Below are positions 33,896 through 43,081 of a stretch of DNA of 64,000 nucleotides, in pieces; the stretch's first letter is position 1, and each line of letters starts with the position of its first letter. The notes beneath the pieces were generated by a model, which saw only the letters and a program-made list of their open reading frames with translations, did not search any database and was not told where the DNA came from. The DNA lies in assembly GCF_000422545.1 (NCBI RefSeq), contig NZ_AULZ01000017.1:1-64000 (forward strand), given 5' to 3'. The stretch is from Desulfocurvibacter africanus subsp. africanus DSM 2603 (GTDB taxonomy: Bacteria > Desulfobacterota > Desulfovibrionia > Desulfovibrionales > Desulfovibrionaceae). The translations under genes were made by a program, and so were the position numbers.

Positions 33896-36088
33896 ATGAC
33901 CCCGAACAAGGCCAGACGCATCAGCAGGCGGGGATTTCTCAAGGCCGCCGGCGCCGTGGCGGCCGGACTGGCCGCCGCCAGGCCCGAGACCGTGGCGGCC
34001 GTGGCCGGCTCTCCGGCGGCGACGATTACCGAGTGGGAGTCGCGCTTCTCCGCCTGCGACATGTGCTTCAACCGTTGCGGGCTAATCGCCCGCGTTGAGA
34101 ACGGGGTGGTGCGCAAGCTCGACCCCAACCCCAAGTTTCTCAAGTCGCGTGGCATGCTCTGCGCGCGCGGCAACGCCGGCATCGCCCAGCTTTACGATCC
34201 CGACAGGCTCAAGTACCCGCTGCTGCGCGTCGGCGAGCGCGGCGAAGGCAAGTGGAAGCGCATCTCCTGGGACGAGGCCCTGGACCTGACCGCCCAAAGT
34301 CTGCAAGCCATCCGCAAGGAGTACAGCCCGAGCGGCGTGATGTTCATGGCCGGATCGGACATGCAGTCCTCGTTCGTGAACAGGTTCGCCGAGGTCTTCG
34401 GCTCCTTCAACGTGACCTCCCACGAGTCCAACTGCCTCATGTCCAACACACGGGCCTACCTGGACACCTTCGGCGAGGTGCCCTTCCCGGACGTGCTCAA
34501 TTCCAAGTACGTGCTCATGGCCGGGGCCAACCGCTTCGAGGCCCTGGTCACGCCCGACTCCATGGACCTCATGACGGCCATGCGCGAACGCGGCTGCAAG
34601 CTCGTGGTGCTCGATCCGCGTTTCACCAAGACCGCTGCCCTGGCCCACGAATGGTGGCCCATCAAGCCCGGCACGGATATGGCCTTCATGCTCGCCTGCA
34701 TGCACGTCATCACCTCCGAGAACCTCTACGACAAGGCCTGGGTCGCCGAGAAGACCTACGGCATCGAGCAGCTCACGCAACATGTGAAGCAGTACGACCC
34801 GCGCTGGGCCGAGGGCGAGACCGGCATCCCGGCCGCTGACATCGCTCGCATGGCCCGCGAAATGGCCGCCGTAGCGCCGCAGGCCATGGTCTACCCTGGC
34901 CGCCGCAGCTCGGACTACGTGAACTCCACGCAGATTCGGCGCAGCTTCGCCATGCTCAATGCCCTGCTAGCCAACTGGGACCGCCCCGGCGGGTTGCTGG
35001 GCGCGCGCGAGGTTGGCCTGGGCTCCGGCATCCCCTTTTCCGCACCCTGGTATGACGAGAACCCCTTCGAGCGCGCCGACGCGGGTATTGCGCCGCTCAT
35101 GATCGAGCACGAAGGCTCCTATGTGCTCCTGCGCGAGGCCGTGCTCAAGGGCGAGCCTTACCCGCTTAAGGGTTTCTTCTCCTTCAAGGTCAACCCGCTG
35201 GCCACGGCCCCGGACCGGGCCAAGTCCATCGAGATGATGAAGGCCTTCGACTTTTCCGTGGTCGTGGACATAGCCATGAGTGACACGGCCTGGTTCGCCG
35301 ATCTGGTGCTGCCCGCCCCGAGCTACCTGGAGCGGATGGACCCGGCCTCGGCCCTGCAAGGCTCCTCGGCCTGCGCCTGCGTGGTGGATCGCGATCCAGT
35401 GGTGCCGGCCATGTTCGAGTCCCGGCCTGTGTTCGACATCTGCAAGGCCCTGGCTCAACGGCTGGAACTGGGCGAGTTTTTCGACTTCGACATGGCGGCT
35501 TTCCGCAAGGCCCAGCTCAAGGACCTGCCCGGCGCGGAAAAGGCCTTGGCCGAGGACGGCGTCTACTACAACCCGTCCAAGGTCTATGGCATCTACGAGG
35601 GCAGGATCTACAAGACCAAGTCGCAGAAGATCGAGTTCTTCAACCAGCGCTACGCCGACGAGGGGCTGGACCCCATGCCCGTGTACAACGCGCCCAAGGC
35701 CGTGCCCGATGGCATGTTCCGCATGGTCGTGGGCCGCAGCGCCGTCTATACGCATTCGGCCACCAACAACACGCTCCTGCGCCAACTGGAGCCAGACTGC
35801 CTGCTGTGGATCAATCCCAAGCGGGCTGATGCGCTGGGCATCAAGGACGGCGACGCCGTGATCGTGCAAAGCGCCGTTGGTAAAGGCCAGGCCAAGGCAT
35901 TGGTCACCGAGGCCATCCGCGCCGACACGGCATATATGCCCACGGGCTTCGGAGCTCTGTCCAAGGGGCTGTCCCTGGCCCACGGCAACGGCGCGAGCAT
36001 GGCCGGAGTGCTCGAATCCAACTTCGACGCGATCTCGGGCAACGCGGCCATGCACGAGACCTTCGTGACCGTAACCAGGAAGGCCTAA
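33896..36088 (+). CDS. Molybdopterin oxidoreductase catalytic subunit, polysulfide/thiosulfate reductase-like
   Basis: 730 residues. It starts with a twin-arginine signal (RRGFLKAAGAVAAGLAAA), then a [4Fe-4S] motif CDMCFNRCG with the fourth Cys in RGMLCARGN. The molybdopterin domains include SHESNCLMSN, where Cys is the likely molybdenum ligand. Length and pattern fit PsrA/PhsA of the DMSO reductase family, which reduce polysulfide or thiosulfate in the periplasm. Rhodaneses encoded downstream support a sulfur substrate, although an arsenate or other reductase cannot be excluded. The FeS subunit gene starts 3 bp later. GGAGAG precedes the ATG. Confidence 0.82.
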   Translation: MTPNKARRISRRGFLKAAGAVAAGLAAARPETVAAVAGSPAATITEWESRFSACDMCFNRCGLIARVENGVVRKLDPNPKFLKSRGMLCARGNAGIAQLYDPDRLKYPLLRVGERGEGKWKRISWDEALDLTAQSLQAIRKEYSPSGVMFMAGSDMQSSFVNRFAEVFGSFNVTSHESNCLMSNTRAYLDTFGEVPFPDVLNSKYVLMAGANRFEALVTPDSMDLMTAMRERGCKLVVLDPRFTKTAALAHEWWPIKPGTDMAFMLACMHVITSENLYDKAWVAEKTYGIEQLTQHVKQYDPRWAEGETGIPAADIARMAREMAAVAPQAMVYPGRRSSDYVNSTQIRRSFAMLNALLANWDRPGGLLGAREVGLGSGIPFSAPWYDENPFERADAGIAPLMIEHEGSYVLLREAVLKGEPYPLKGFFSFKVNPLATAPDRAKSIEMMKAFDFSVVVDIAMSDTAWFADLVLPAPSYLERMDPASALQGSSACACVVDRDPVVPAMFESRPVFDICKALAQRLELGEFFDFDMAAFRKAQLKDLPGAEKALAEDGVYYNPSKVYGIYEGRIYKTKSQKIEFFNQRYADEGLDPMPVYNAPKAVPDGMFRMVVGRSAVYTHSATNNTLLRQLEPDCLLWINPKRADALGIKDGDAVIVQSAVGKGQAKALVTEAIRADTAYMPTGFGALSKGLSLAHGNGASMAGVLESNFDAISGNAAMHETFVTVTRKA

Positions 36089-36091
36089 GCC

Positions 36092-36883
36092 ATGAACAAG
36101 CCCCAATACGCCATGGTCATCGACTCGTCCCGCTGCATCGACTGCAAGGGCTGCGTGGCTTCCTGCAAGGTGGCCAACAAGGTGCCCGAGGGACATTTCC
36201 GCAACTGGGTCAAGCAGAGCGCTCCGGTTGTAGCTGTGGGCAAAGGTGCCGGACAGCACTTCCAGCCCGGCGCGTGCATGCACTGCGACAACCCCACCTG
36301 CGTGCAGGCTTGTCCCACGGGCGCGACCTGGAAGGACCCGACCACGGGAATGGTAGAGATCGACCGCGGCCTGTGCATCGGCTGCGGCAACTGCATAGCG
36401 GCCTGCCCCTACGGGGCGCGCTACCGCCACGCGACCATGCGCGTGGCCGACAAGTGCGACTACTGCGCCGAGCGCCGCGCCCACGGACTTGGGCCCGCCT
36501 GCGTGGATACCTGCCCGACCAAGGCCCGCGTGTTCGGCGACATCAACGACCCGAGCAGTGAGGCCGCCATCCTGCTGGCCGCCAACCAGGATCGCATCGT
36601 GCGCGTGGTGAACCAGAAGTCCGACACCAAGCCCAACATGTACTACATCGCCGCCACCGCGCCCCTGGACTGGACCGTGGAGGCGAAGATGCCCACGCCC
36701 ATGAAGCTCATGGCCGACGCTCTCACGCCCGGCCTGCGCGTGGCCGTGGGATTCGCCGGACTTGGCGCGCTGGCCATGCTCGGCCGCCAACTCCTGACTC
36801 CGGCCAGCAAGGAGCACGACGAGGACGGCCAGAATGATCAAGGCGAGCGCGTCACCGAGCGAAACGCAGAGACGGAGGCCTAA
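36092..36883 (+). CDS. Four-cluster ferredoxin subunit of the reductase (PsrB/PhsB-like)
   Basis: 263 residues. Cys clusters read CIDCKGCVASCKVANKVP, CMHCDNPTCVQACPTGA, CIGCGNCIAACPYGARY and CDYCAERRAHGLGPACVDTCP, the sets expected for four [4Fe-4S] clusters. It has no signal peptide of its own and would be exported with the Tat-bearing catalytic subunit. A C-terminal hydrophobic stretch (LRVAVGFAGLGALAMLG) may anchor it to the membrane. It passes electrons between the cytochrome b and the molybdenum centre. The next gene starts 1 bp after its stop. Confidence 0.9.
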   Translation: MNKPQYAMVIDSSRCIDCKGCVASCKVANKVPEGHFRNWVKQSAPVVAVGKGAGQHFQPGACMHCDNPTCVQACPTGATWKDPTTGMVEIDRGLCIGCGNCIAACPYGARYRHATMRVADKCDYCAERRAHGLGPACVDTCPTKARVFGDINDPSSEAAILLAANQDRIVRVVNQKSDTKPNMYYIAATAPLDWTVEAKMPTPMKLMADALTPGLRVAVGFAGLGALAMLGRQLLTPASKEHDEDGQNDQGERVTERNAETEA

Positions 36884-36884
36884 A

Positions 36885-37616
36885 ATGGAACGCCGCTTCT
36901 ACCGCCATAGCCGGTGGGACATCTTCATCCACTGGCTCAACGCCGCCTGCTGGCTGCTGTTGCTCGTCACGGGCCTGGGGCTCATCTCCAACCCGGACAT
37001 CGATCCCCTGGGCGGCTGGTATCCGGCCATGCTTCGGGCCATATTCGGCGGCGGAGCCAACCTGCTGATCTTCCACATCGCTCTCGGCGTCGTCTGGATC
37101 GCGGGCTTCGTCTTGTACATCGCATTCAACTTCAGGGGCGCGCTGTTCTTCCTGCGCGAGCTGTTCAGCGTGGACCTGCCGCGCGACGCCTTATGGATGG
37201 TCAAGAAGCCCATCCAGATGACCCTGGGCGACGCCGGGCTGCGCAAGCTCGGCCTGAGCACGGACATTCCCGACCAGGGCTTCTACAACATGGGCCAGAA
37301 GTCCTTCGGCCAGGCCTCGGTGCTGGGCAGTCTCGTACTGGCCGTCACGGGAGTGGTCATGGTCATGTCGCGCACCAGCCTGGGCGAGGCGCAGACCGGC
37401 CTGGTGTCCTGGTCCATCCTGCTGCACTACCTGTCCGCCGGCTTGGTCTTCGCCGGGCTCATCATCCACGTGTACATGGCGGCGATCTCCCGCGACGAGC
37501 GGCCCGGCTTCCGCTCCATGTTCACGGGCTGGGTGGACGAGAACTACGCCAAGCACCACCACCGCTTGTGGTGGGAGAAAGAGCGTGCCGTCGCAGGTGT
37601 GCGGGAAGAGGAATAG
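36885..37616 (+). CDS. Di-haem cytochrome b membrane subunit (formate dehydrogenase gamma-like)
   Basis: 243 residues with four membrane helices. Conserved His residues occur in RHSRWDIFIHWLNAACW, LLIFHIALGVVW and LLHYLSAGLVFAGLIIHVYM, with the family segment PDQGFYNMGQK between helices. This is the FdnI/PhsC-type quinone-linked cytochrome b rather than the NrfD-type anchor found in classical Psr. It would exchange electrons with the menaquinone pool. It overlaps the operon closely and is followed by hairpin repeats. Confidence 0.87.
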   Translation: MERRFYRHSRWDIFIHWLNAACWLLLLVTGLGLISNPDIDPLGGWYPAMLRAIFGGGANLLIFHIALGVVWIAGFVLYIAFNFRGALFFLRELFSVDLPRDALWMVKKPIQMTLGDAGLRKLGLSTDIPDQGFYNMGQKSFGQASVLGSLVLAVTGVVMVMSRTSLGEAQTGLVSWSILLHYLSAGLVFAGLIIHVYMAAISRDERPGFRSMFTGWVDENYAKHHHRLWWEKERAVAGVREEE

Positions 37617-37624
37617 CCTCCGGC

Positions 37625-37713
37625 GGCAGGGGGGAAATCATTCCCCCCGGACCCCCCGCAGTTTTGAAGGAGCCGCCGGCGATTCGGCCGGTTCCTCCGG
37701 CCGAATCGGATGA
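37625..37713 (+). terminator. Hairpins after the reductase genes
   Basis: GGGGGGAAATCATTCCCCCC (37630-37649) and then CGATTCGGCCG...CGGCCGAATCG (about 37680-37708) form two stems. Together with repeat B they fill the 222-bp gap before the rhodanese gene and may reduce its transcription. Confidence 0.55.
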
Positions 37714-37778
37714 AGGGTCCAGGGAGCCCGCTCCCTGGTGGGTGGGGTTCGGGGAGGGCAAAGCCCTTCCCGATTGCC
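37714..37778 (+). repeat. Hairpin repeat B, copy 3
   Basis: GGGTCCAGGGAGCCCGCTCC followed by CTGGTGGGTGGGGTTCGGGG and AGGGCAAAGCCCTTCCCG: the same layout as copies 1 and 2, with a different loop in the first stem. Confidence 0.72.
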
Positions 37779-37838
37779 AAGCCCAATAGATCGAAAACAA
37801 GAGGCGTCGAGAACATCTTAAGGAGAGTGAGGGAAGTC

Positions 37839-39020
37839 ATGAACACCATGCGCAAGCAACTGACCCTGCTGGCGGTGCTCGCAGCCCTGTTGGGCCTCGT
37901 CGCGACCGGCTGCGCGGCCAAGTCCGAAGCCGGGACACCGGCCCAGGCCGCGGCGAGCACAAACGCCGACGGCACGGCCGGCGAGCTGAGCCCGCCGTCC
38001 CAGACCCCGGCCTGGTATTACAAGGACCTCGTGGACAGCGCCTTTGTCGAGCAATACGTCAAGATGCCCCGGCCGGAGAACGTGCTCATCATCGACTCGC
38101 GGCCCTTCAAAACCAAGCACGCCCTCGGCTATATTCCCACGTCCGTGTCCATCCCGGACAGCGAGTTTGATAAGCGCACGGCCGAACTGCCCAAGAACAA
38201 GGACGCGCTGCTGATCTTCTATTGCGAGGGCTACGCCTGCAAGCTGTCGCACAATTCGGCCAAGAAGGCAGCGGCCCTGGGCTATACGAATGTGAAGGTC
38301 TACGCCGGCGGCTATCCGGTCTGGAAAACCGAGGGCCGCTACACGGCCATCGGCACCCCGGTCGTCGAGGAGATGATGGCCAGCGGCAAGCCTTACTTGC
38401 TCGTCGATGCACGTCCCTTCAAGACCAAATTCCAGCAGGGCAGCATTCCCACGGCCATCTCCCTGCCCGACTCCGACTTCGAGGCGCGCAAGGGCCAGTT
38501 GCCGGCCGACAAGAGCATCCCGCTGGTCTTCTTCTGCGAGGGCTTCACCTGCAAGCTGTCCAATGAATCGGCCAGGAAAGCCGAAAAGCTCGGCTACACG
38601 AACGTCATGGTCTACGAAGCCGGTTATCCGGCCTGGATCGAAGCCCATGGAACCGGTTCCGCTCCGATGATCGTCGCGAGCGATGCCGGTGAGGGCACCA
38701 TCGCAGTCGCCCAGTTCGAGCAGACCCTCAAGGACAATCCCAGCTCCATCGTCATTGTCGACGTGCGCGACGCCGACGAGTTCAAGGCCGGCCATTTCAA
38801 AAACGCTCGCAACATCCCCGTGGCCGAACTGGAGAAGCAGCTCAAGTCCATGCCCAAGGACAAGCCCGTGGTCTTCGTGTGCTCCACCGGCGCGCGTAGC
38901 GGCGAAGCGTACTGGATGGCCAGGGATGTGCGGCCGGACATGGACAAGGTCTACTTCCTGGATGCCACCGTGACCTATGCCAAGGACGGCGCCTACTCCA
39001 TCAAGGCGCCCAAGAAATAG
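37839..39020 (+). CDS. Lipoprotein with three rhodanese domains
   Basis: 393 residues. Lipoprotein signal with lipobox VATGC at about Cys26. Three rhodanese modules follow at about 65-170, 175-275 and 285-385, with active-site loops CEGYACKLS, CEGFTCKLS and CSTGARSGE. The first two have a C-x4-C loop; the third is the common C-x4-R type. As a membrane-anchored periplasmic sulfur carrier it would deliver or accept sulfane sulfur for the neighbouring reductase. GGAGAG sits about 16 bp before the ATG. Confidence 0.88.
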   Translation: MNTMRKQLTLLAVLAALLGLVATGCAAKSEAGTPAQAAASTNADGTAGELSPPSQTPAWYYKDLVDSAFVEQYVKMPRPENVLIIDSRPFKTKHALGYIPTSVSIPDSEFDKRTAELPKNKDALLIFYCEGYACKLSHNSAKKAAALGYTNVKVYAGGYPVWKTEGRYTAIGTPVVEEMMASGKPYLLVDARPFKTKFQQGSIPTAISLPDSDFEARKGQLPADKSIPLVFFCEGFTCKLSNESARKAEKLGYTNVMVYEAGYPAWIEAHGTGSAPMIVASDAGEGTIAVAQFEQTLKDNPSSIVIVDVRDADEFKAGHFKNARNIPVAELEKQLKSMPKDKPVVFVCSTGARSGEAYWMARDVRPDMDKVYFLDATVTYAKDGAYSIKAPKK

Positions 39021-39085: not shown

Positions 39086-40060
39086 ATGACCGCTCATCAG
39101 CTAACCCCCCTTGCAATCCTCTGGTCCATCCTCGCCGTCATCTTTTTCTCGGACGCTGCCCAGGCTTCACCCCGTCCTGCCTGGTGGGCGGACGCGCAGG
39201 CCCAGGCCAGCAACAACGGCTACGTGCTGGTGGACGATGGCGAGATGGAGGTCTTGCGTCGGGAGGGCCGCGCCCTGCTGATGGACGTGCGGCCCGACTA
39301 TGAATTCGCCATGGGCCACGTGCCAGGCGCCATAAACATGGAATTCCATCTGGGCGACCAGCACGAGCTGCCCATGAACCGGGCCAAGCGGCTGGCGGAG
39401 CTGCTGGGACCAGACCATGGCCGCACCATAGTCATCTATTGTAGAAGCTTCATGTGACTGCGCAGCGCCATCGCCGCCCGGTGGGCGGTGCGCCTGGGTT
39501 ATCACGACGTGCGGCGCTACCCTGCCGGCTGGCAGGGCTGGCTGGCCGCCCACCCAGATGCGCTGCCGCCCGAGGCGCGGCCCAGGCTGCCTGGTCCGGG
39601 CGACACCTTCCCCGCCGAGCTGCCCGAGCCGTTCCTGGATATCGATCGTCGCATACTGGGTCCAGGCTTGGAGCAGGCCGACTTCCTCCTGCTGGAACTG
39701 CACTCCAGCCTATGCGGCTGCTGCCAGGAGGAGCTGCCCGTGTACCAGGACTTGCACGCGCGCATTTCGGCCGACCTGGAGCTTACGCAGTGGCTGCGCA
39801 TGGCAGGCATCGCGGCCTATGACACCCGACGCGATCTGGCCAAGGCCCGGCGCACGGGACAGATAGGCTATCCGCTTTTGCCCGACGAGCGGGGCGAGGC
39901 CTTCGCCGCCCTGGGCCGTCCGGAATTGCCGGTAATCATGCTGCTGCGAAGAAAGGAAGGAATCGGCAGGGATTATCAGGTGCTACTGTCTCACCAGGGG
40001 CGCTTGCCAAAGCCGGATGTGTTCTTTGAAGAGGTGCGGCGAGCCGTGCTCAGTCGCTGA
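39086..40060 (+). CDS. Probable selenoprotein: rhodanese fused to a thioredoxin-like domain (in-frame TGA)
   Basis: 324 residues if TGA at 39455-39457 is read as selenocysteine (residue 124). Signal peptide (to about SDAAQA), rhodanese domain (LLMDVRPDYEFAMGHVPGAINM) and active loop IVIYCRSFM-U-LRSAIAARWAVRLGYHDV; coding continues smoothly past TGA. The loop C119-x4-U124 puts Sec exactly where the preceding gene has its second Cys (CEGYAC, CEGFTC). The C-terminal half is a TlpA/thioredoxin-like domain with LHSSLCGCCQEELP. A hairpin with a GGU loop lies 23 nt after TGA. The alternative is a nonsense mutation. The 3' end overlaps the convergent chaperone gene by 11 bp. Confidence 0.75.
39465..39493 (+). 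promoter_or_regulatory. Candidate bacterial SECIS element
   Basis: Stem CCGCCC/GGGCGG with apical loop GGT, an internal bulge and a lower GCGC/GCGC stem, starting 7 nt after the TGA. The loop position (23-25 nt after TGA) and the GU in the loop agree with known bacterial SECIS hairpins. Confidence 0.5.
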
Positions 40061-40766
40061 CTGGGTTCAGCGCAGCCAGCGTCAACCGGGCGGCCGAGCG
40101 GAAAAAGGCCTCGGGGGTGCGTCCGATGGAGCCGCCGGTGCTGGCGCGGGTTGTATCCGGCTCCGCTGGAATGACCGACTCAAGGGTATCCGCCCAGCGA
40201 CGCCAGGCAGGCAGGACCTGCAGGGCGAAGTCCCTGGTCAGGGTAGCCAAGGCGGGATTATCCTCGTCAAGGGCTTCGGTCAGGAGAAAGGCCAGGTACT
40301 CCAGTTCGATGGACAGGTGATCGGGCGGCTCGGCCAAGCCCTCAACCAGGGTTAGACCGGCCTGGACCAGCCGCTCGCTCATGGCCTCGGCCGGCGGGCC
40401 CATGAGTCTGCCGCCGTTCGGCGTATGGCAGGACTCGTAGAGCGGAGCCTGAATGCCGCCACGCGCATTGATGAACAAGGAAACGTAGGCGCTTTCCAGA
40501 TCAGCCAGGCTGGCGTTGATGTCATTGCTGGAGGCCATGCAGGGGGAGACTTGGATCAGAAACGCCAGCGGTTCGGCCAGAGGGCTTCCGCAATCCGCAG
40601 CGCGGCGGGCCAAATCGGGCAATTCCTGGCCCAGCAATGCGGGAAAGCTTTCCAGATCCGGACCCTGGAATATCTCGGCGCACAAGTCCAGCACGTCGAT
40701 GCGCACGGCGTCCGGCGTGCATGCCTGGTCTGGCCTGGATGCTGAAGCGGTATATTCGCTGTTCAT
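40050..40766 (-). CDS. TorD/DmsD-like molybdoenzyme chaperone
   Basis: 238 residues, mostly helical. The segment LESAYVSLFINARGGIQAPLYESCHT is typical of the TorD family (Y..LF......PLYES), as are LSIELEYLAFLLTEAL and FALQVLPAWRRWADTL. These chaperones bind the Tat signal of a molybdoenzyme and assist cofactor insertion; the obvious client is the reductase catalytic subunit encoded 4 kb away. The start at 40766 avoids an unlikely 17-residue extension. It lies tail to tail with the selenoprotein gene and diverges from the repressor gene. Confidence 0.85.
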   Translation of the reverse strand: MNSEYTASASRPDQACTPDAVRIDVLDLCAEIFQGPDLESFPALLGQELPDLARRAADCGSPLAEPLAFLIQVSPCMASSNDINASLADLESAYVSLFINARGGIQAPLYESCHTPNGGRLMGPPAEAMSERLVQAGLTLVEGLAEPPDHLSIELEYLAFLLTEALDEDNPALATLTRDFALQVLPAWRRWADTLESVIPAEPDTTRASTGGSIGRTPEAFFRSAARLTLAALNPVSD

Positions 40767-40823
40767 GGTTCTTGGCTGACTGCAAGCCGGGTTAACCCCG
40801 ACAACTAGGAAATTCAAAGGACT

Positions 40824-41189
40824 ATGTACGTTATCCCGGCCATGGCAAGACGTAAAGTCAAAAGGGCGCTACGCCGCAAGCTGCTATCGGCTTCCCAAGA
40901 AGATGCCGCGCCCCTGGATACTATCCAGCAGAGTGTGCTGGCCAGGTTACGCAGGATCGAAGGCCAGGTGCGCGGCATCCAGGGCATGGTCGCAAACGGT
41001 ACGGACTGCCGGGACATCCTTGTGCAGGTCAAGGCCGTGCGTTCGGCGCTCAAGGCAGCCAACGGCCTCATCCTCAAACGTTATCTCCTGGGTTGCCACA
41101 AGCAAGCCCGGGAAAACCCGACCTCGAACGACGCAGTGGCCAAGCTGGATGAGTCTATGCGCCTGCTGTCCAGCTATCTGGACAGTTGA
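40824..41189 (+). CDS. CsoR/CstR-family transcriptional repressor, likely sulfide/persulfide-sensing
   Basis: 121 residues (115 from the in-frame ATG at 40842). The DUF156 helical fold is clear: LARLRRIEGQVRGIQGMV, DCRDILVQVKAVRSALKAAN and LLGCHKQA. Cys62 and Cys91 are 29 residues apart, as in CsoR and CstR. The His that completes the copper site in CsoR (four before the second Cys) is Tyr87 here, so the Cys pair is better suited to persulfide chemistry, as in CstR. It probably represses the adjacent sulfur locus through the ATACCC...GGGTAT site at 33154. Confidence 0.85.
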   Translation: MYVIPAMARRKVKRALRRKLLSASQEDAAPLDTIQQSVLARLRRIEGQVRGIQGMVANGTDCRDILVQVKAVRSALKAANGLILKRYLLGCHKQARENPTSNDAVAKLDESMRLLSSYLDS

Positions 41190-41364: not shown

Positions 41365-41595
41365 GGAGCCTTTTCATGAGCTTGGGAAGCAACTTACTTC
41401 CAGGTGCATTTCAAAGCAGAGTCCCGCAGGGTACCGCAATTGATTAAGCATGTGTGAAGCCTGCATGCGCGCAATGCGTGGCCCAGCGAATTCTTTCCAA
41501 TGAATACTCTTGCTTGGCGCAGCCTTGGCGTTCCTTCGACCTTCGGCACGCAAGCTGCTAAAGCTTTGCATAACCCCTATGACAAGGATCTTTTC

Positions 41596-42603
41596 ATGAA
41601 TACGAAGAATAAGGCCCGTTTCTCACGGCGCGCTTTCCTGGCCGCGGCGGCAGTGGGAGGAGCGGGGCTGGTCCTGCCCGGCACCGCGCGCGCCGCGGCC
41701 AAGGGAGAACCCCTGGCCACCTTGCTGGACCTGAGCAAATGCATCGGCTGCGAGGCCTGCGTGCTGGCCTGCCAGGAGACCAACGGCCACAAATTCCCAG
41801 AGCCGCAAAAACCCTTCCCCAAGATGTATCCGGCTCGGGTCAAGGCCGAGGACTGGTCCGAGCGCCGCGACACGACCGACAGGCTCACGCCCTACAACTG
41901 GCTGTTCATTCAGCGCGCCACAGTCGAGCACCAGGGACAAAGCCTGGAGATCAATATCCCAAGGCGCTGCATGCACTGCCAGAATGCACCGTGCGCCAAC
42001 CTGTGTCCCTTCGGAGCCTGCTCCACGCAGGCAAACGGCATCGTGCGCATCGATTCGGGCGTGTGCCTGGGCGGGGCCAAGTGCCGCCAGGTCTGTCCCT
42101 GGCACATCCCGCAGCGTCAGACCGGCGTGGGCATGTACCTCAAGCTCATGCCCGGCTTCGCCGGCAACGGCGTCATGTACAAGTGCGACCGCTGCTTTGA
42201 CCGTGTGGCCCAGGGCGAGCTGCCCGCGTGCATCGAGGCTTGTCCAGCGCAGGTGCAGTCCATAGGCCCGCGCAAGGAGATCGTGCGCCGCGCCCATGAG
42301 TTGGCCGAGTCCATGGGCGGCTACATTTACGGCGAGACCGAGAACGGCGGCACCAATACCCTGTACGTCTCTCCCGTGCCTTTCGAGGCCTTGAACGCCG
42401 CCCTGCACGCCGAGCATGGCGAGACAAAGCCCAGGGCCATGGCTTCGGGCTTTCCGCATCTGGGGCCGGTGGCCAACTCCATGGCGAATGAGGAAAACCT
42501 GGGCTGGGCAGTCCTGGCCGCGCCCGTGGCCGGCCTAGTGGCCGGCGTCGTTGGCCTGGGACGCATTCTGAAACGCGGCGGCAAGGAGAACGACCATGAT
42601 TAG
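41596..42603 (+). CDS. Tat-exported ferredoxin-like FeS protein
   Basis: 335 residues. Twin-arginine signal (FSRRAFLAAAAVGGAGLVL), then Cys clusters CIGCEACVLACQ, CMHCQNAPCANLCPFGAC, CLGGAKCRQVCP and CDRCFDRVAQGELPACIEACP, the pattern of FeS subunits of the DMSO reductase family (third cluster modified: C-x4-C-x3-C). A C-terminal hydrophobic segment may anchor it. No catalytic subunit is adjacent; the following gene is a small membrane cytochrome. It could serve a catalytic subunit encoded elsewhere. AAGGATC precedes the ATG. Confidence 0.85.
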   Translation: MNTKNKARFSRRAFLAAAAVGGAGLVLPGTARAAAKGEPLATLLDLSKCIGCEACVLACQETNGHKFPEPQKPFPKMYPARVKAEDWSERRDTTDRLTPYNWLFIQRATVEHQGQSLEINIPRRCMHCQNAPCANLCPFGACSTQANGIVRIDSGVCLGGAKCRQVCPWHIPQRQTGVGMYLKLMPGFAGNGVMYKCDRCFDRVAQGELPACIEACPAQVQSIGPRKEIVRRAHELAESMGGYIYGETENGGTNTLYVSPVPFEALNAALHAEHGETKPRAMASGFPHLGPVANSMANEENLGWAVLAAPVAGLVAGVVGLGRILKRGGKENDHD

Positions 42604-43081
42604 GCCATTGCCTTCGAGCAGACCGTTGCTGCCCAGGGAGTTCCGCCTGGCCTTCGTTCTGTGCGTCACAGTGCTGGCCATAAGCGGCTTCGCGCAGATG
42701 CCCATCTTCCGACGCTACTACATAGCCGACGTGCCGGGACTGGCCTGGACCGACAACTTTTATTTCACCAGCCAACTGCACTATCTGGCGGCCGTGGGTT
42801 TCCTCGTCCTCGCCGGCTATGCGGCCGGACGCTACCTGACGGCCCGGCGATCCGGCCACGCCCTTACGACCAGCGGCATCCTGCGCTCCGGCCTGTACGC
42901 GCTGCTGACCATCACCGGATTGGCCCATGTGCTCGGCAACAGCAGCCTGACCTCGCTGGACAGCCTCCCGGCCATGCTGGTCGACATGGGTCACTTGGCG
43001 TCCGTCATGCTGCTGGGGCTTGTCTCGCTACTTTCGGCCCTGCTGGGTCGGCGCGATTGGCTGCGACACAGAAGTTCCTGA
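42596..43081 (+). CDS. Small membrane cytochrome b-like subunit
   Basis: 161 residues with four membrane helices and His residues in the pattern of cytochrome b subunits (FTSQLHYLAAVGFLVLAG, LTITGLAHVLG, VDMGHLASVMLLG). The ATG overlaps the stop of the FeS gene by 8 bp, so the two form one complex. It presumably exchanges electrons between quinone and the FeS protein. The exact family is not recognised. A terminator-like hairpin follows. Confidence 0.72.
   Translation: MIRPLPSSRPLLPREFRLAFVLCVTVLAISGFAQMPIFRRYYIADVPGLAWTDNFYFTSQLHYLAAVGFLVLAGYAAGRYLTARRSGHALTTSGILRSGLYALLTITGLAHVLGNSSLTSLDSLPAMLVDMGHLASVMLLGLVSLLSALLGRRDWLRHRSS

Follow-up and report, generated by a model that had tools for sequence, protein, structure and literature searches.

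A selenocysteine rhodanese with a C-x4-U loop and a fused thioredoxin-like domain, predicted from the genome of Desulfocurvibacter africanus

A rhodanese gene of Desulfocurvibacter africanus subsp. africanus DSM 2603 carries a TGA codon in its active-site loop, which raises the question of whether this codon ends the protein or encodes a selenocysteine (Sec), and, if the latter, what a Sec would do at this place. The gene is located at positions 39086..40060 on the forward strand of the window, the 64,000-nucleotide stretch of DNA analyzed here. Read from ATG 39086 through the in-frame TGA at 39455..39457 (forward strand) to the terminal TGA at 40058-40060, the frame comprises 324 codons, and the internal TGA is codon 124. 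The encoded protein has three parts: a hydrophobic N-terminal stretch that resembles a signal peptide by eye and suggests that the protein is probably exported, a rhodanese domain (residues ~33-157), and a TlpA/ResA-like thioredoxin domain (residues ~166-324). As the first-pass annotation had anticipated of gene callers, mechanical ORF calling with translation table 11 splits this frame into 39086-39457 (123 residues) and 39488-40060 (190 residues). Such a split is what would be seen if the TGA were a genuine stop codon, a sequencing error or the scar of a pseudogene, with the downstream piece either untranslated or separately started, but the downstream ORF would then have to start inside the rhodanese domain. 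Moreover, the Pfam Rhodanese model (PF00581) matches residues 57-154, spanning codon 124, with a score of 68.2 bits against a cut-off of 22.2, so that both the coding sequence and the rhodanese homology run uninterrupted through the TGA, as had been claimed from the letters of the DNA.

The C-terminal domain, taken as a single sequence, scores 15.5 bits with the Pfam AhpC-TSA model, below the gathering cut-off of 26, and the family profile matches ResA (PDB 3c73) with an E-value of 6e-12. The structure of the whole protein was modeled by AlphaFold2 from 28 sequences, with Cys replacing Sec, at a mean pLDDT of 88.0 and a pTM of 0.67. Structural similarity search with this model showed that residues 166-324 align to thioredoxin-fold proteins, including ResA and CcmG, with Z-scores up to 14.8; the superposition against ResA (PDB 2h1b) has a Z-score of 14.1 and an rmsd of 2.5 with 130 aligned positions, and peroxiredoxins match at a Z-score of ~13. 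Residues 36-160 align to rhodaneses, with a Z-score of 14.4 for 3tp9, and a second structural comparison returned chiefly matches to the thioredoxin part. Altogether, the family profile and the fold comparison bear out the rhodanese-thioredoxin fusion proposed in the first-pass annotation.

The thioredoxin-like domain contains a CGCC motif (Cys210..Cys213, 39713..39724, forward strand), and 30 of the 33 distinct fusions have a CxxC at this place. It is missing in the other three (L019, L020 and L022, the last being the same protein as L077), all of which keep the loop Sec. Among 49 distinct homologues, 33 are fused to a thioredoxin fold and 16 have no thioredoxin domain. The 16 single-domain homologues (L018, L021, L024-L035, L082 and L084), defined as those whose frame ends at the first stop after the Sec site with TGA counted as a stop, are 151-199 residues long, and 14 of them carry the TGA. 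A PhsA-like gene is also nearby for homologues whose flanks were compared (e.g. L080, L083 and L084).

The loop of the Sec rhodanese reads C119-R-S-F-M-U124. Cys119 (TGT, 39440..39442, forward strand), the presumed sulfur-accepting cysteine, is invariant in two alignments of 30 rows (A1) and 28 rows (A2), and residue 124 is the last of a C-x4-U motif. The active loop of rhodaneses usually reads C-x-x-G-x-R, which the present protein does not match. In four of the five alignments shown, its loop is two residues longer than that of the solved rhodaneses, and the gap falls within CRSFMULRS, so the C-x4-U motif sits in an enlarged loop. The Sec had been placed at the sixth position of the loop; this holds by counting, but not as homology to position 6 of most rhodaneses, since the loop is enlarged. 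The accompanying comparison with the adjoining triple rhodanese is apt, as the two CX4C loops of that protein (CEGYAC and CEGFTC) have a Cys at the same loop place.

To see what other genomes have at codon 124, 198 genomes were searched with the protein, and 35 of them, the own genome included, gave a match at an E-value of 1.2e-26 or better. An in-frame TGA is present in 32 of the matches and absent from three. The site itself was read in 30 of the 35, where it is TGA in 27 and Cys in three, exactly at codon 124, and in these 30 sequences Cys119, Arg120 and residue 124 (U/C) are all invariant; Cys119 and residue 124 are likewise invariant in the 28-row alignment. Thus a UGA within a conserved domain is aligned with the Cys of homologues, the pattern by which bacterial selenoproteins are recognized. 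A second, named collection of 30 loci, partly the same genes, has 22 TGA and eight Cys and no other residue at the site; one of the two search patterns behind this collection required Cys, so that its share of Cys forms may be inflated, a bias from which the 198-genome search is free. Homologues with Cys or Sec at this site are what the first-pass annotation had asked for as a check, and a misread TGC or TGT, which it had named as a possible refutation, is not sustained, because 32 genomes would not all contain the same misreading. One of the Cys forms (L072) is the same protein as L012, and a distant one (L086) does not have the Arg after the loop Cys. Two metagenome-assembled genomes titled Deltaproteobacteria (L069 and L071) are labeled Myxococcota by treekit and encode a near-identical gene (CRSFAU) to that of Desulfobacteraceae assemblies; the conflict is probably a naming artefact, and otherwise would reflect mislabeled bins or transfer. 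One relative assigned to the family of the host encodes the same protein as Pseudodesulfovibrio pelocollis, so that this family includes Pseudodesulfovibrio. In plasmid records, only two distant rhodaneses were found, both from Plesiomonas.

A residue at which Sec and Cys have replaced each other repeatedly is classically taken to mark a Sec site. In a phylogeny of 50 distinct domains, 41 with Sec and nine with Cys, built without L081, L085, L086 and duplicate proteins, the Sec/Cys label needs five changes, at least three of which are forced by well supported branches, and a single Cys clade is rejected (p-AU 0.00474). In addition, all eight of eight hand-picked pairs of relatives, compared gap-free, show an excess of third-codon-position changes 3' of the TGA; between L007 and L078, for example, the downstream changes number 15, 10 and 87 at codon positions 1, 2 and 3. 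This pattern argues that selection continues past the TGA. Taken with a TGA whose sole alternative seen is Cys, it makes a true stop, a pseudogene or a sequencing error very unlikely, and we reject these readings. A reassigned code in which TGA means Trp or another residue was also set aside, since homologues have Cys, the genome encodes a tRNA-Sec and the same gene uses TGA as its stop codon.

The host genome, an assembly of 4.4 Mb and 40 contigs with a completeness rating of 100%, contains all four components of Sec synthesis and insertion that had been proposed as a check, namely selA, selB (above cut-off), selD and selC, the last being a tRNA-Sec with anticodon TCA (tRNA-Sec(UCA)). The selD match (L053, G000:C2:245108-246025) contains one in-frame TGA, which suggests that the selenophosphate synthetase of this host is probably a selenoprotein as well. 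Whereas the search for selA, selD and tRNA-Sec covered the genome of the window, selB was followed across the relatives. Of the 35 genomes with a homologue, 34 have selB, among them the three Cys-form genomes; it was not found in one TGA genome, G168, an assembly of 510 contigs. Since 168 of the 198 relatives overall encode selB, finding it is of little discriminating value.

The region immediately 3' of the TGA (39458..39502, forward strand) contains a candidate bacterial SECIS hairpin that fits the published rules of spacing and loop. These rules, in the matched passages of the 2026 prokaryotic selenoproteome (PMC13188914), are a loop of 3-9 nt with a G in the first two loop positions, a distance of 16-37 nt from the UGA and a folding energy of at most -7.5 kcal/mol. 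A rule-fitting hairpin of -7.5 kcal/mol or lower is found in 38 of 41 TGA sequences, but also in seven of seven Cys sequences. In the window gene itself, the best hairpin has an energy of -22.9 kcal/mol compared to a synonymous-shuffle mean of -14.8, and 1% of the shuffles are as low. For the family, the hairpin sum over the 41 TGA sequences is -525.9 against a shuffle mean of -490.4 (SD 27.9), with 18 of 200 shuffles as low; these fractions are approximate, as shuffle seeds were not fixed, and the set leaves out L060, L081, L085, L086, L072 and duplicates, with L059 likewise outside it. Hairpins at the site are also stronger than elsewhere in the same genes, the mean fraction as low being 0.12 for the TGA forms and 0.08 for the seven Cys forms. 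Because the Cys forms show the same hairpin strength, the amino-acid sequence may be the cause of these hairpins. In the 64-kb window, Rfam gave no match at gathering scores. The hairpin is therefore compatible with Sec insertion and is not evidence for it, and a strength that across the family does not clearly exceed that of synonymous shuffles is also what a true stop would allow. The comparative evidence nonetheless leaves us nearly certain that UGA 124 is decoded as Sec by the cell's own machinery.

The genes around the Sec rhodanese suggest a setting in sulfur metabolism. Upstream, on the same strand, are a PhsA-like molybdopterin oxidoreductase (33896..36088), a 4Fe-4S electron-transfer subunit (36092..36883), a cytochrome b561-type membrane subunit (36834..37616) and the triple rhodanese (37710..39020), which ends 65 bases before the Sec gene. 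The PhsA-like protein reaches 534 of the 694 bits set as the PhsA cut-off, and its Tat-like signal 20.5 bits, just below the cut-off of 22.7. Downstream, a gene for a TorD-like chaperone on the reverse strand (40050..40817; 37.9 bits, below the NCBIfam cut-off of 132) shares 11 bases with the 3' end of the Sec gene, and is followed by a CsoR-family repressor (40824..41189, forward strand), which could sense persulfides instead of metal. Genes for an HmcB/HybA-like iron-sulfur subunit and a small membrane protein are located at 41500-43078; in L079 their homologues are close to the Sec rhodanese, and the gene cluster may extend to them.

Of the 30 named loci, 25 have cytochrome b close to the homologue, 22 a PhsA-like gene, 22 a multi-rhodanese, 18 TorD and ten CsoR, in counts where several of the contigs stop too early to show these genes. 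Two loci, L085 and L086, are without this set of neighbors. Judged from these gene orders, the link between the Sec rhodanese and a PhsA-like type of enzyme, a candidate sulfur-reducing enzyme assigned below the PhsA cut-off, is conserved and extends to many sulfate-reducing bacteria. A 2026 paper (PMC12998232), in its matched passages, names a molybdopterin oxidoreductase cluster, MOLY, as a candidate for sulfur disproportionation.

In rhodaneses, a Cys serves as the persulfide carrier, and here this residue would be Cys119. The invariant second chalcogen (Sec or Cys) and the fused CxxC thioredoxin domain suggest a reductive ending of the reaction. On balance we favor, with moderate confidence, an explanation of the whole locus in which the Sec-decoded and probably exported rhodanese belongs to a molybdoenzyme sulfur-reduction operon and acts as a periplasmic sulfane-sulfur reductase, not as a plain sulfur carrier. 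For the individual steps, which we consider about evenly balanced between right and wrong, the following scheme is proposed. Cys119 would accept sulfane sulfur from polysulfide, thiosulfate or the neighboring multi-rhodanese; Sec124 would then attack the Cys119 persulfide, freeing HS- and forming a Cys119-Sec124 selenenylsulfide. The fused CxxC domain would reduce this selenenylsulfide, and DsbD might in turn recharge the domain across the membrane; the host genome encodes two DsbD_TM proteins. We infer in this scheme the export, the persulfide chemistry, the role of Sec as resolver and the electron route alike.

Alternatively, the protein might carry sulfur for the molybdoenzyme or donate it, much as the polysulfide transferase Sud is reportedly a carrier; Sec would then be an alternative acceptor of sulfur or selenium, and the protein would not turn over as a reductase. 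Both the PhsA-like gene and the multi-rhodanese nearby would suit such a role, as would the single-domain homologues, which keep C-x4-U/C without a thioredoxin domain. Moreover, the family profile matches 1qxn, named a sulfide dehydrogenase and presumably the Wolinella Sud, with an E-value of 2.4e-4. A carrier, however, needs one Cys only, whereas the second chalcogen is invariant here, and two thirds of the distinct homologues (33/49) are fused to a thioredoxin fold, so we regard a pure carrier as unlikely. The single-domain homologues (16/49) and the fusions without CxxC (3/33) do indicate that the fused reductase is not obligatory; in these proteins the reduction may come from elsewhere, or they may themselves act as carriers.

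A further possibility is a protein of redox repair, in which Cys and Sec would work as a dithiol-type oxidoreductase, either a peroxide or a disulfide reductase, that keeps the rhodanese cysteines of the operon or the molybdoenzyme reduced. The ResA/CcmG-like fold of the fused CxxC domain and its peroxiredoxin matches are in line with this, and the matched text of PMC9312934 assumes redox functions for the majority of predicted prokaryotic selenoproteins. A rhodanese fold with an intact Cys119 and a neighborhood of the sulfur-reduction type nevertheless point to sulfane sulfur as the substrate, and we consider repair improbable, distinctly more so than the carrier. If the reading as a sulfane-sulfur reductase is true, a step of anaerobic sulfur respiration would involve selenium, and the protein would offer a testable case of Sec at a resolving instead of a sulfur-accepting position. 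As Sec and Cys versions occur naturally in matching gene clusters, the benefit of Sec could be compared directly. Such genes in sulfate reducers also risk being annotated as broken, and no NCBIfam 20.0 model reaches its cut-off on the window protein.

Among known proteins, the nearest is TsoB (NCBIfam NF045694), listed as rhodanese form 5 with a UxxxxU motif in the matched passages of PMC13188914. Both have an N-terminal rhodanese domain, the same loop spacing and a fused redox module, and the second Sec of TsoB coincides in position with Sec124 (FYUAGLTUVRS in TsoB and IYCRSFMULRS here). The TsoB model is the best NCBIfam 20.0 model for the window protein; it matches residues 15-155 with an E-value of 6.8e-27, but reaches only 93.8 bits over the whole protein compared to a cut-off of 805. 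They differ in the first loop residue, which is Cys here and Sec in TsoB, and in the redox module, which is a soluble CxxC thioredoxin domain here and a DsbD-like part in TsoB. In the 12 TsoB loci that were read, the loop is UAGLTU or similar, a two-Sec pattern that CRSFMU does not share. With C-x4-U and no DsbD fusion, the protein is by its sequence not TsoB, for which the model gave no match in the host genome at an E-value of 1e-40. TsoB is above cut-off in 13 of the 198 relatives (L087-L098), with two TGA codons, and coexists with a C-x4-U gene in, for example, G031, G127 and G147.

The same selenoproteome table, in its matched part, gives five rhodanese forms, of which forms 1-4 carry UxxS, UxxG, CxU and UxxG and none C-x4-U (PMC13188914); judged by these motifs, forms 1-4 share a Sec-bearing rhodanese domain with the present protein. 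The model of form 3, an LYCAU rhodanese selenoprotein (NF041203), scores 20.2 bits against a cut-off of 115. In the matched passages of the open literature, among the matches listed, no C-x4-U rhodanese selenoprotein was found. Rhodanese or sulfurtransferase-like selenoproteins listed there without a motif (PMC2398784, PMC5029168, PMC8318568 and PMC1088965), one list being from marine Deltaproteobacteria, may include this gene unnamed. Thus, of the probable new selenoprotein announced in the first-pass annotation, the Sec reading is supported by the Sec machinery and the TGA/Cys homologues, and the novelty narrows to a new variant within the known selenocysteine rhodaneses, with an earlier unnamed sighting possible.

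Beyond selenoproteins, the adjoining triple rhodanese shares the CX4[C/U] loop spacing and the gene cluster, but has three rhodanese domains, no TGA and no thioredoxin domain. The neighboring genes share their architecture with the PhsABC thiosulfate reductase (PhsA, NCBIfam NF012032). As described in the matched passages of PMC7969121, the NADH-dependent persulfide reductase Npsr (CoADR-rhodanese) is likewise a rhodanese fused to a persulfide reductase, but is an FAD/NADH enzyme with an unrelated redox domain; a CoADR-RHD (PDB 3icr) is among the structural matches of our model. The reductive logic also suits TsoB, which has U-x4-U and contains its own DsbD-like part. Tentatively, and at somewhat less than even odds, we suggest that rhodaneses with a longer loop and two chalcogens spaced four residues apart (CX4C, CX4U and UX4U) form a redox-active class, in which sulfur carriers might have turned into periplasmic sulfane-sulfur reductases by gaining a second residue and a fused reductant, TlpA-like here and DsbD-like in TsoB, built into molybdoenzyme sulfur respiration, with Sec as the resolver and not the sulfur acceptor.
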